Shown here: piece by piece, positions 3,624 through 59,163 of the stretch
Position numbering within the stretch: position 1 is the first letter of the stretch
Layout of the letters: each line of letters opens with the position of its first letter
DNA from: Rubidibacter lacunae KORDI 51-2
GTDB lineage: Bacteria; Cyanobacteriota; Cyanobacteriia; Cyanobacteriales; Rubidibacteraceae
DNA: 64,000 bases
Direction: 5' to 3'
Assembly: GCF_000473895.1 (NCBI RefSeq)
Contig: NZ_ASSJ01000079.1
Span: 124,001-188,000, forward strand
Program-made: the position numbers and the translations under genes
Notes under the pieces: generated by a model
Databases searched by the model: none
What the model was told of the DNA's origin: nothing
The model's input: the letters and a program-made list of their open reading frames with translations, nothing else

Positions 3624-3783
3624 AAGAACATGTCGCTCTGCCAATAATTACCTTGCTCTACTAGATCGCATGACAATATTGAGGAAAATATCACCTCCTG
3701 TCGCTACCGCTCCTCGGAGCTCGGGGTTCTCATGCCAACTCAAGGAACTATTGCAACAGATGGCAGACCTGGAATCTTAAGTA

Positions 3784-3993
3784 GGGCTTGCTGAAAAAGG
3801 CTGGAATCCCTGCAATGAAAGGATCTCAGCGTTTTCTATGCCAGAAAAGTGCAAGGTTATAGGCACCAGAGCCTCAAAACCCTTGCACTTGGGCCGAGAA
3901 TCCGAGGCAAAAAGCTGGGGCTAGATGGTAAAAGCCAGATTCCATAAGCTCTCTGCCTCCTAAATTCGTTTTGTGGACTTTTTCAGCAAACCC
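3784..3993 (+). mobile_element. MITE-like element, family 1, copy 1 (210 bp)
   Basis: A 210-bp element bounded by imperfect terminal inverted repeats, GGG(C/T)TTGCTGAAAAAG, 16 bp with one mismatch. Both sides are flanked by TAAGTA (3778-3783 and 3994-3999). A second copy in the opposite orientation at 27590-27799 has the same length and differs at only three positions by my alignment. The middle folds into a stem: AAGTGCAAGG (3847-3856) pairs perfectly with CCTTGCACTT (3881-3890), with AGGC/GCCT nested inside. It encodes no transposase, so a non-autonomous element moved by a transposase elsewhere is the best reading. A 40-residue open tail on the minus strand ending at 3874 lies within it and is probably not a gene. 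Confidence 0.85.
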
Positions 3994-3999
3994 TAAGTA

Positions 4000-27405: not shown

Positions 27406-27589
27406 AAAACCCACGTTGTCAATGGCAACGCGTCAAAGGCAACTCAATGTCGCACCGTTTTATTCGGTTGCGGCAGAACAGCGAAATTTACTGCTACTCA
27501 GTTAATCACAAGAGCCGATCGTGATGCTATCCCGGGACAGCGAGTTCGAAAGCAGTAAGTTCCCTTTATACCTCTGCCCTACCTACTTA

Positions 27590-27799
27590 GGGTTTGCTGA
27601 AAAAGTACACAAAACGAATTTAGGAGGCAGAGAGCTTATGGAATCTGGCATTTACCATCTATCCCCAGCTTTTTGCCTCGGATTCTCGGCCCAAGTGCAA
27701 GGGTTTTGAGGCTCTGGTGCCTATAACCTTGCACTTTTCTGGCATAGAAAACGCTGAGATCCTTTCATTGCAGGGATTCCAGCCTTTTTCAGCAAGCCC
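27590..27799 (-). mobile_element. MITE-like element, family 1, copy 2 (210 bp)
   Basis: The opposite-orientation copy of the element at 3784-3993, again 210 bp and again flanked on each side by the same hexamer (TACTTA at 27584-27589 and 27800-27805; TAAGTA on the minus strand). By hand alignment it differs from copy 1 at three positions. It carries the same hairpin. Its right-hand base 27799 supplies the G of the TAG stop of the neighbouring J-domain gene. The open frame at 27521-27709 within and beside it corresponds to the frame seen in copy 1 and is unlikely to be a real protein. Confidence 0.88.
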
Positions 27800-28776
27800 T
27801 ACTTACCGTTGCCAAATAAACCCCCTAGGAAGCTGCGCTTGCTGCCCTTACTATCCGTGTCAACGTTAGTCGATGACGGCGGTAGCGGTTGCTGAATCGT
27901 TTGTTTCTGGCGATCCACGAGCTGGTCGATCATTTGTTGGGCCACTTTTGCCTGGGGATTATTGGGATCGCTCGCAATTGCTTTGCGGATATGAACGCGC
28001 GCCATGCCAAACGACTTCTGACCCAGATATGCGATGCCGAGCAAGGCATGGCAGCTGCTATCGTGCTTGTCCACTTCTAGGGCCTCGCGCAATTCCCGAA
28101 TTGCTAGGACGTAGTTTTTTGTTTCGAGATACCCTTGCGCGCGACGACGGCAGGGCTCCATCGGAGAACTTGCGCGACGCTTATTCGCCTGACTCTCCGT
28201 CGCCACTGCAGCTTGCTTGTTGCCGTTAATGCCGATACCACTATCTAAGTTCTGCGGTGTTCGACTGCTCGCCGCATTTAAATGCGCGGGCTTGCGCGTC
28301 ATATAAACTAAATTCAGTTCGCTGATCGTTGCAATCCGATCCGGCACTTGGTGCATCCGTTCGTAAAGCTCTGCTGTAATCGGCCGCATGAGCTTGAAGT
28401 AGGCCTGCTCTAATGGGCCGCGAGCAACCATCAGCTCTTTTGCCGCATCGCTTTCCACTGCCAGGCTGCCGCCCTCTGCTGCTAAACGCGCCCTCATTTG
28501 ATTCAGAATCAGGATGTGCTCCTGGCGACGCTCCTTGCCTTTGCACAAATTTTCGTAGGCTGGATTGACTAGCTTAGACAAAAGAGCGTCGGCCAGCCGC
28601 TGCTCTTCTGGATCCGCAATCTTGCGGATATCGGGGTATAAAATGCGCGTGATTCTCAGAAACTGTTTGCGGGCAACGTCCACTTTCGCCCCAATGGGCA
28701 GCCCGAGGATAGCATGGTAATCGATGATGTCGTACTTGAATAAACCACGCTCAACTCTAATAGCAGTAATAGGCAT
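27799..28776 (-). CDS. J-domain-like / tetratricopeptide protein
   Basis: 325 aa. Residues about 17-80 resemble a J domain (DYHAILGLPIGAKVDVARKQFLRITRILYPD), but the HPD motif that stimulates Hsp70 ATPase reads YPD, so the His is missing. A long linker and a TPR-like region (about residues 215-285: AQGYLETKNYVLAIRELREALEVD and LGIAYLGQKSFGMARVHIRKAIASDPNNPQA) follow, ending in KRSFLGGLFGNGK. The stop TAG takes T and A from the MITE target hexamer and G from the element itself. The empty-site sequence inferred by removing the MITE also gives TAG, so the protein length is unaltered. Probably a chaperone-like adaptor rather than a classical DnaJ. Confidence 0.72.
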   Translation of the reverse strand: MPITAIRVERGLFKYDIIDYHAILGLPIGAKVDVARKQFLRITRILYPDIRKIADPEEQRLADALLSKLVNPAYENLCKGKERRQEHILILNQMRARLAAEGGSLAVESDAAKELMVARGPLEQAYFKLMRPITAELYERMHQVPDRIATISELNLVYMTRKPAHLNAASSRTPQNLDSGIGINGNKQAAVATESQANKRRASSPMEPCRRRAQGYLETKNYVLAIRELREALEVDKHDSSCHALLGIAYLGQKSFGMARVHIRKAIASDPNNPQAKVAQQMIDQLVDRQKQTIQQPLPPSSTNVDTDSKGSKRSFLGGLFGNGK

Positions 28777-36091: not shown

Positions 36092-36592
36092 TTAGTCGAA
36101 GTAAAACAGAGTTACGAGTTTGCGCTGCTCTTCTGCTTCCTGACAGGTTTGTAATAACGTCCGACTGTCGTGGAATGCAAAGCAAACAAGCTGTTGGCAG
36201 CGCGAAACGATCTCGCGGTTGCACAGGGCGCTGGCTTCTCCCAAGGACAGTGAATCGTTGTCGGGATTTTCGACGAGATGGACGACTTGCTCTAGCTGCT
36301 CGCGGGATTCGCGTGGCTGCCGCTTCAGACTCTGAGGCAAAATTACCGTTAACAAGTTCGGGTCGGCACGCATAGCTCCCTTGATTACGGCAGAGTTGGT
36401 GCCGATGGCACCAGAGGTGACGACGCGGTTACCGCCGAGAACGAGGGCATAGCTCATGATCTCGATCAGTTGTTGGTGCGTGATCGGGACGTGGCGGGAC
36501 CCGAGTAATGCCAGTCGCTTCGACCCGGTTTGCTGGATAGCTGCCAGTTCCTGGGTCAGCGTGTCGAGTTGGATTTCTGCGGATTGACTCAA
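36092..36592 (-). CDS. DprA-like/SLOG-family protein
   Basis: 166 aa starting at TTG (36590-36592), with no strong Shine-Dalgarno; the start is uncertain. The core LALLGSRHVPITHQQLIEIMSYALVLGGNRVVTSGAIGTNSAVIKGAMRADPNLLTVILPQSL has the Rossmann-like pattern of DprA/LOG proteins (GSR, TSGAxGxxxAxxxG). Cyanobacterial annotations call this a DNA recombination-mediator protein A. Whether it loads RecA onto DNA or has a nucleotide-hydrolase role is unknown; the small size fits the Rossmann core only. It stands apart from larB by about 160 bases and may be separately transcribed. Confidence 0.72.
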   Translation of the reverse strand: MSQSAEIQLDTLTQELAAIQQTGSKRLALLGSRHVPITHQQLIEIMSYALVLGGNRVVTSGAIGTNSAVIKGAMRADPNLLTVILPQSLKRQPRESREQLEQVVHLVENPDNDSLSLGEASALCNREIVSRCQQLVCFAFHDSRTLLQTCQEAEEQRKLVTLFYFD

Positions 36593-36800
36593 GGGGTTGC
36601 AGAGTTCGCGCGTGCATTGAACCCCGATATTTTAACAAACAGCGTACCCGTCAGAAGCTGTCTCCCTCGAAGTGGCACACAACCTCGAGACTCGCTGACC
36701 CTTCGGAAATGCCAAATCGCAAAGTCAGCCGCTTAATCCCGTCTGCCCCCAAAACGATCGTTACGGTTCGTCGTCGGGTAGGGGTTGCTTTATTGCTATG
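36593..36800. other. Spacer left of the structured element
   Basis: About 210 bases with no gene and no named feature. The GC-rich stretch with many short repeats (GGGTAGGGG) near 36777 leads into the structured element at 36801-36920. Confidence 0.35.
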
Positions 36801-36920
36801 AAGCCACCCTTATTCCGCTTATGGGCTAAGCAAGCACATCGACTCCCATTCACAAGGAAAAAACATGGGAGCAACCACAATCGGTTACTCCCAGGCGATG
36901 TAGCAGGAACAAGGTGGCTT
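36801..36920 (-). ncRNA. Structured element with competing hairpins, downstream of the peroxiredoxin gene
   Basis: AAGCCACCCTTATTCC (36801-36816) pairs with GGAACAAGGTGGCTT (36906-36920) in a long stem with one bulge and one mismatch. Inside, ACATCG (36836-36841) pairs with CGATGT (36896-36901). Within that, CTCCCAT (36843-36849) pairs with ATGGGAG (36865-36871), but the same GGGAG can instead pair with ACTCCC: GGGAGCAACC (36867-36876) with GGTTACTCCC (36883-36892). On the minus strand this second stem is followed by ATGTTTTTTCC (36857-36866 in plus coordinates), the layout of a terminator after the peroxiredoxin gene (37028-37666). Two states of a transcript could thus exist. It may be a terminator, an attenuator or an ncRNA; the pairing is seen, the role is inferred. 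I recognise no known RNA family. Confidence 0.55.
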
Positions 36921-37027
36921 TGCCCCAATTTCTAGATTGTGAGGTCGCCAACCGCCGCTCGCGGACGTGCTATAGCTGACATGCAACCTTGCAGACGCAC
37001 TGCAATAGCAACCTGAAATCAGATGGC

Positions 37028-37666
37028 TTACTTGTTTGGCTGAGGCGTCATCCGCAGGTAAGGCTTAACCACGGTATAGCCTTTGGGGAAACGCTCTTTT
37101 AGCTCTGCCTCGTCCTTGATTGAGGGGACAATGACGCAGTCTCCACCATCTTGCCAGTTGACCGGCGTTGCTACCTTATAGTTGTCGGTCAGCTGCAGCG
37201 AGTCGATAACGCGCAGGATCTCGGGGAAGTTGCGTCCGGTGCTGGCCGGATAAGTCAGTGTCAGGCGCAGTTTCTTCTGCGGGTCGATGATGAACACCGA
37301 GCGCACCGTCAGCGTATTGCTGGCGTTGGGGTGGATCATGCCGTAAAGGTCGGATACCTTGCGATCGCCGTCGGCCAGAATCGGATAGTTGAGCGACACG
37401 CTTTGAGTTTCTTCAATGTCCTTCGTCCAGCCCGCGTGGGACTCGACATCATCCACGCTCAACGCTACTGTTTTGACGCCGCGCTTGTCGAATTCAGGCT
37501 TCAGTCGAGCGACTTCGCCAAGTTCCGTCGTGCAAACCGGCGTGAAGTCCGCCGGGTGCGAGAACAACACTACCCAGCTATCGCCCGCCCAGTCGTAGAA
37601 GGAGATTTCCCCTTTCGTCGATGCTTGGGTAAAGTCGGGAACGGTATCGCCAAGTTGCAGAACCAT
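37028..37666 (-). CDS. 1-Cys type peroxiredoxin (Prx6-like)
   Basis: 212 aa from the ATG at 37666; an upstream in-frame start at 37702 exists but would add an unrelated prefix. The peroxidatic Cys is residue 45 in the motif PADFTPVCTTELG. No second catalytic Cys is seen at the usual place of 2-Cys enzymes. GRNFPEILRVIDSLQLTDNYKVATPVNW in the C-terminal half matches the Prx6/AhpE-type family. It reduces hydrogen and alkyl peroxides in the cytoplasm. It lies alone, and downstream is the structured element at 36801-36920. Confidence 0.93.
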   Translation of the reverse strand: MVLQLGDTVPDFTQASTKGEISFYDWAGDSWVVLFSHPADFTPVCTTELGEVARLKPEFDKRGVKTVALSVDDVESHAGWTKDIEETQSVSLNYPILADGDRKVSDLYGMIHPNASNTLTVRSVFIIDPQKKLRLTLTYPASTGRNFPEILRVIDSLQLTDNYKVATPVNWQDGGDCVIVPSIKDEAELKERFPKGYTVVKPYLRMTPQPNK

Positions 37667-37957
37667 GATTTTCTCCGTGAGCAGTAAGCAGTTCGTTTGC
37701 AAGCCGATCTGCGGAACGCCATCGGGTAGGCGGTCCGCTAATCCCCGGCTTTCCGGTCGGGTTTTCGGTCTTTCTCATTATACGTCTCGGGTCTGGAGGC
37801 GATTGACAGTCCAATCCAGCGTGCGATCGCCTGGATTAGCGCTCCAACGCTCTTGCTGGCTCCACCGTTATGATGAGAAAATATGAAGCCATTGTTAAGC
37901 TTCACGCGAGCTCGGCTTTAACGGAGCAAGCAGCAACTGCAGGAGGAGACCGACATC

Positions 37958-38424: not shown

Positions 38425-38438
38425 GAGCGGAACCTAAA

Positions 38439-38468
38439 AGGGGTTGCTTTAGCAACTCCTTATTTTTT
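38439..38468 (+). terminator. Rho-independent terminator of psbU
   Basis: AGGGGTTGC (38439-38447) pairs with GCAACTCCT (38452-38460), with one G-U pair and a TTTA loop, followed by TATTTTTT. This is a classical terminator for the psbU transcript. Confidence 0.85.
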
Positions 38469-54194: not shown

Positions 54195-54344
54195 AGGGCA
54201 AACGCATACAGATTTCTTTGGCTGGACCGAATTAGGTTGCGGGGTTCTGGAGTGCTTGAACTGAGATCTCTGTTCTCAACAAGTCCAGCTCGAGGTTCGC
54301 ATATTGTGAAAATTGAGCTGAAATTCCAAGCATGCGTTTGCCCT
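54195..54344. mobile_element. MITE-like element, family 2, copy A (about 150 bp)
   Basis: Starts AGGGCAAACGCAT (54195-54207) and ends ATGCGTTTGCCCT (54332-54344), perfect 13-bp inverted repeats. Two diverged copies occur at 55861-56007 and 58896-59045, aligned over their whole length, sharing TGGAGTGCTTGAAxT..., CTGTTCTCAxxxAGTCxAGxTCGAG and GAxxTGAGxTTCCxAG segments. No open frame of a transposase is inside. Best read as an old non-autonomous element. No clear target duplication at its ends. The rest of 54120-54810 (between tRNA-Gly and the NHL gene) has no recognised gene. Confidence 0.7.
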
Positions 54345-55755: not shown

Positions 55756-56207
55756 CGAATGAGTTACCGCAACAGCTGAAACAAGCGGTTATAAAGCCAA
55801 CACCCAAGATATTATTCTACGATTTACAGCATTTTTGCAAGCTTTGCGGCGATACGGGTAGGCAAGCGCATACAGATGTATGGACTATGTCCGATTTGGG
55901 GTTTCAGCGAACAGGGGTGCTTGAAGTTAGCTCTTTGTTCTCATCCAGTCCAGATCGAGCCCAGCTCATTGTGAAAATCGAGCTGAGTTTCCAAGTATGC
56001 GTCTGCCCCAGGCGATATGGGGATTTACCTAAAAGAGGCATAACGTTTCCTAAAAGAACGCCCGAGACGTTGCCACCGATTGCGTCAAGCCGGAGCACCA
56101 CCTTTATTCACCGACTGCCTTGCGCTGGCAGGGCTAATACTGCTAAAAGTTTGAGTCATTGGGGTCGTGCGATTGCCGATACCCTTTCGCCAGCAGCCCG
56201 AATCACG
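55756..56207. other. Spacer holding MITE family 2 copy B
   Basis: About 450 bases between the NHL gene and nrdR. It contains the diverged family-2 repeat at 55861-56007. Outside the repeat I see no gene; the open plus-strand frame at 55887-56270 is not credible. Confidence 0.5.
55861..56007. mobile_element. MITE-like element, family 2, copy B
   Basis: About 147 bp, starting GGCAAGCGCATACAG and ending GTATGCGTCTGCC, imperfect inverted ends. It aligns with copies A and C over its length, though many bases differ. No coding capacity. Degenerate, so older than the family-1 copies. Confidence 0.65.
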
Positions 56208-56708: not shown

Positions 56709-56903
56709 TGGCGATTCTTTAAATCAACGCGATCGGCACGAATACTGTTCGCTACATGCGCGTGGGAAACTGCTCGGATATCAGATATCTGAGCCAAAAA
56801 CCCACTCCCAAACTTTTGACAGTTTCAGAGGGGATGATTCGGCTCAGATACTGAGTGTTCCTGCCGGCGATCGCCAACAGTAAAAATTTACGGGTCTGGA
56901 CGG
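56709..56903. other. Spacer between nrdR and psbT
   Basis: About 195 bases separating nrdR and psbT, both on the minus strand. It should hold the promoter of nrdR and the end of the psbB-psbT transcript. No named feature is seen. Confidence 0.35.
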
Positions 56904-58684: not shown

Positions 58685-59163
58685 TGGTTACGCTCCTCCT
58701 CCTTCTTGTTGAAATTTCGTGACTGCGGTGAACGCTTCTTCCCAATTTAGCGAGCTTATACGCTTCACCCCGGGCACTGGAGGCGACCGAAGATGAAAGC
58801 TGAAAACCCTACAAAATCAGCATCCTAAACTGAAGTTTGTTAACGAAGTGTAACTTTACCTGGGGACGGTTTGCAAGGCAAATGCTTGCTACTTCAGGGC
58901 AAACGTATTAGGACTTCTTTGCCAGGACCGAAGCAGAGTTTCAGCGATCTGGAGTGCTTGAACTTAGCTCTCCGCTCTCAACAAGTCTAAATCGAGTCCT
59001 GCTCATTTCGATAATAGAGCTGAGATTCCGAGTAAGCGTTGCCTATCTGGCTGCCATAAGATTGCTTCCAAGCAATTGCCGCAAGCAGTTAGCGAGTCCG
59101 GATGGTGTGAATCGCGCAGCAACAGGTACCGCTGCTGGCTGCGAGAGCGAGTCAGGTCGCCGG
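58685..59163. promoter_or_regulatory. Spacer upstream of psbB
   Basis: About 480 bases between psbB and the VOC gene, both on the minus strand. It contains family-2 repeat C (58896-59045) and must include the psbB promoter in the first 200 bases, but no boxes are certain. The repeat sits about 210 bases upstream of the psbB start. Confidence 0.45.
58896..59045. mobile_element. MITE-like element, family 2, copy C
   Basis: About 150 bp. Starts AGGGCAAACGTATTAGG and ends GTAAGCGTTGCCTAT, so the inverted ends are decayed. It aligns with copies A and B (ATCTGGAGTGCTTGAACTTAG, CGCTCTCAACAAGTC). The three copies lie within about 5 kb, on the chromosome between tRNA-Gly and the VOC gene, which is a striking local cluster. 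Confidence 0.65.

Follow-up and report, generated by a model that had tools for sequence, protein, structure and literature searches.

A predicted Rho-independent terminator in the spacer downstream of a peroxiredoxin gene of Rubidibacter lacunae KORDI 51-2

The peroxiredoxin locus and its downstream spacer

The genome of Rubidibacter lacunae KORDI 51-2 comprises 4,153,658 bases in 99 contigs (PMC3910548). Within the window, that is, the whole 64,000-nt stretch of DNA that was analyzed, the hairpin element under study lies inside a 435-nt spacer separating two minus-strand genes, which encode a peroxiredoxin and a DprA-like Rossmann protein (Table 1). The preliminary description had placed the element after the peroxiredoxin gene and had drawn in it an outer stem, an inner stem, a terminator-like hairpin and a CTCCCAT/ATGGGAG helix; all of these pairings were recovered where it had put them, and the terminator hairpin was found 134 nt past the peroxiredoxin stop codon on the minus strand.

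The gene psbU (PsbU) is also present in the window near the peroxiredoxin gene, as fits a cyanobacterium, and this peroxiredoxin/psbU neighborhood recurs in many relatives. The DprA-like neighbor was found beside peroxiredoxin in this genome alone among the relatives' loci compared. Separately, psbU is itself followed by a terminator-like hairpin, AAGGGGTTGCTTTAGCAACTCCTT-ATTTTTT, at window positions 38438-38461 on the plus strand.

Table 1. Features of the peroxiredoxin locus and its downstream spacer (window positions).
Feature	Position	Strand	Remarks
DprA-like Rossmann protein, short (166 aa)	36092-36592	-	Below Pfam cut-off; adjoins peroxiredoxin gene
Outer stem, left arm	36801-36816		Past terminator on minus strand; transcribed on read-through only
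Inner stem, left arm, ACATCG	36836-36841		Pairs with 36896-36901
ATGGGAG, proposed blocking arm	36843-36849	-	Downstream of T-run; helix probability at most 0.0006
U-tract TGTTTTTT, 7/8 T, straight after hairpin	36858-36865	-	Predicted transcript 3' end
Intrinsic terminator hairpin (predicted), TGGGAGTAACC-GATTGT-GGTTGCTCCCA	36866-36893	-	11 bp, -18.7 kcal/mol
Inner stem, right arm, CGATGT	36896-36901		Pairs with 36836-36841
Outer stem, right arm	36906-36920		Pairs with 36801-36816
Peroxiredoxin gene	37028-37669	-	AhpC/TSA (AhpC-TSA) and 1-cysPrx_C domains; stop codon 37028-37030

A hairpin and T-run on the minus strand

To our knowledge, cyanobacteria are without Rho. On the minus strand the TGGGAGTAACC/GGTTGCTCCCA hairpin, taken alone, is predicted to fold with a stability that was matched by 0 of 1000 shuffles, and its pairing probability was near 1 at all transcript lengths tested. 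The same site headed the list in a terminator scan of the region, having the most pairs. It has three features of an intrinsic terminator, namely a stable hairpin, at least 4 U in the 8 nt after it, and a position behind a gene, on that gene's coding strand, and the hairpin with a T-run that had been described earlier is thereby confirmed on the right strand. No T-run stands behind either hairpin on the plus strand, so the terminator signal is one-way, and its direction fits the peroxiredoxin gene.

Intrinsic transcript ends in Synechococcus elongatus have been defined by four or more U within 8 nt and a minimum free energy below -10 in 30 nt (PMC13289151), and the TGTTTTTT hairpin site exceeds both of these thresholds. 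Canonical intrinsic terminators end only 22% of transcription units in S. elongatus, and it follows that a particular hairpin is not necessarily where most transcripts stop.

The element resembles a cyanobacterial intrinsic terminator in its stable hairpin and immediate T-run, located past a stop codon on the coding strand, and differs in lying somewhat far from the stop, where many relatives have 10-60 nt, and in the incidental weaker stems around it. A gap of two nucleotides (TG) between the stem and the T6 run also speaks somewhat against a terminator. The hairpin, the T-tract, their strand and the gene order are all computed directly, and an end signal would be expected in such a position, which follows a gene and is no leader. 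It is very probable that the element is the ordinary Rho-independent terminator closing the peroxiredoxin transcription unit, and it presumably acts as such in the cell. As RNA polymerase on the minus strand passes the peroxiredoxin gene, the 11-bp hairpin would form, the polymerase would pause in the TGTTTTTT tract, and the transcript would be freed with its end near 36858; termination at this point would set peroxiredoxin apart from the next minus-strand gene (36092-36592).

Conservation, and the small RNA and transposon readings

DNA searches of the element's own genome and of plasmids found a single copy, the element itself, and otherwise short, chance-level matches, and a DNA search of 59 relatives gave no credible match (short ones, with E of 0.01 or worse). 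A single-sequence covariance model run against 100 genomes (99 relatives) recovered the element itself and one match of E 0.96, which was taken as chance. No second Rubidibacter species was among the genomes searched, and a homologue was found neither in the 59 relatives (DNA) nor in the 99 (covariance model).

Peroxiredoxin orthologues (72-86% identity) were found in nearly all relatives. A terminator-like hairpin with a T-rich tail at most 350 nt past the peroxiredoxin stop was present at 50 of 100 loci, none resembling the one described here, in a simple terminator search from which minus-strand loci, including the window's own gene, were left out. Same-family spacers read by eye contained differing hairpins shortly past the peroxiredoxin stop, some with T-runs. 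What recurs is thus the position and not the sequence, the pattern expected of terminators, which stay in place as their sequence changes.

An alternative is that the terminal part of the peroxiredoxin mRNA, terminator included, is a small RNA derived from the 3' UTR, as ApcZ is from its parent mRNA in Synechocystis. Cyanobacteria are known to make sRNAs from mRNA 3' ends (PMC8136909), and the long 134-nt 3' UTR closed by a strong terminator is a point of likeness to ApcZ; unlike ApcZ, the element is without conservation in any relative searched and without sign of a separate RNA. In agreement with the earlier statement that no known RNA family matches, Rfam returned nothing, whether at the gathering threshold or with E relaxed to 5, and no promoter-like site was found on the minus strand of the spacer, which counts against an sRNA. 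The preliminary description had also thought of a regulatory RNA, and the absence of the element from all relatives searched gives a conserved one no support. An sRNA from this 3' UTR is possible but unsupported, and we regard it as quite improbable; that the 3' UTR and terminator are released as a lineage-specific sRNA tied to the peroxide response of Rubidibacter is, if anything, slightly less likely.

The element could also be read as a decayed miniature transposable element (MITE), in which the outer stem would be a pair of terminal inverted repeats enclosing a palindrome. The two outer arms, AGCCACC(C)TTRTTCC, nearly match each other in inverted orientation, and the same genome carries a multi-copy MITE-like repeat, but the element is single-copy, its inverted-repeat motif is confined to this one place in the genome, its flanks contain no clear target duplication, and chance would be expected to give stems of this quality. 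A transposon origin is accordingly very improbable, below either form of the sRNA reading.

Two repeat families were observed elsewhere in the window. A 222-nt MITE-like repeat occurs at 3778-3999 and, inverted, at 27584-27805, the two copies being 99% alike; the genome has at least 41 copies (82-100% identity), the ends TAGGGTTTGCTGAAAAAG and CTTTTTCAGCAAGCCCTA resemble terminal inverted repeats, and two same-family genomes also contain 22-26 nt of these ends, one of them with 23 matches. Additionally, a 103-nt sequence is present in three direct copies, 76% alike, at 54236-54338, 55901-56003 and 58938-59040.

The surrounding stems and the proposed switch

On the minus strand the 127 nt at 36798-36924 are predicted to fold at -55.1 kcal/mol, compared with -35.8 +/- 3.8 for shuffles (z -5.1), and on the plus strand at -45.7 kcal/mol compared with -29.6 (z -4.4); once GC content was corrected for, the element on the minus strand came second in a folding scan of the 64-kb window. 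As an observation apart, no 127-nt stretch of the window folds better than that at 56776-56902 on the minus strand, a long hairpin in which CTCAGTATCTGAGCC pairs with GGCTCAGATATCTGA. When the terminator hairpin was swapped for AAAA, the z score of the element fell to -2.6, with 8 of 1000 shuffles as good, a score that 1.8% of 103-nt segments drawn at random from the window also reach. The folding significance is almost wholly due to the terminator hairpin. Stems that equal the outer one in strength and whose arms are separated by 60-135 nt numbered about 194 in the real sequence and 212 in local dinucleotide shuffles (64 kb, both strands), so that the outer stem is at chance level, and in the lower-GC bins the same count gave 9 real and 7 shuffled stems. 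The stems around the terminator are complementary by chance, and half of this complementarity lies in DNA that polymerase reaches only by reading through; the outer stem probably caught attention through framing a real hairpin.

Two hairpins had been proposed to be mutually exclusive, with the CTCCCAT/ATGGGAG helix holding the T-run in its loop and blocking termination. In the best fold the outer and inner stems stand alongside the terminator hairpin, so these stems do not exclude it. The rival helix pairs, in plus-strand letters, CTCCCAT at 36843-36849 with ATGGGAG at 36865-36871, and the order of elements on the minus strand is the 5' arm of the terminator, its 3' arm, the T-run and then ATGGGAG. 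This last arm is transcribed after the T-run, and the rival helix would therefore form too late to prevent termination. It is also weaker by close to 9 kcal/mol, as computed (-8.9 kcal/mol against -17.1 for the terminator): forcing it in a 271-nt read-through RNA costs 8.7 kcal/mol, and its ensemble probability on the minus strand is at most 0.0006. Folding of the minus-strand transcript revealed no upstream arm competing with the terminator, and forbidding the 3' arm of the terminator at the T-run costs 12.7 kcal/mol. Of 94 terminator-like hairpins in the cyanobacterial DNA examined, 4, this element included, had a rival helix of at least 7 bp nearby, and having one is mildly unusual at most. 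A plus-strand terminator or switch was considered as a separate candidate and rejected, since neither hairpin is followed by a T-run and the rival helix has a probability of 0.0003 there.

Terminator/antiterminator attenuators and transcriptional riboswitches share with the element that an overlapping alternative helix can be drawn, but here the alternative arm lies past the T-run, is much weaker and was found in none of the relatives searched, and the site, more than 200 nt ahead of the next start codon, comes after a gene and not in a leader. Neither an antiterminator formable before the terminator nor two states of comparable stability were found. Despite the 7-bp rival helix and the CTCCC that it has in common with the terminator, an attenuator or riboswitch-like element, as the preliminary description had it, is the least probable of the readings considered and is not supported. 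As points of method, a rival helix can be an antiterminator only when its arm is transcribed ahead of the T-run, and in GC-rich DNA chance often places nested stems round a terminator. The element is one more predicted cyanobacterial terminator, and its significance is accordingly small.
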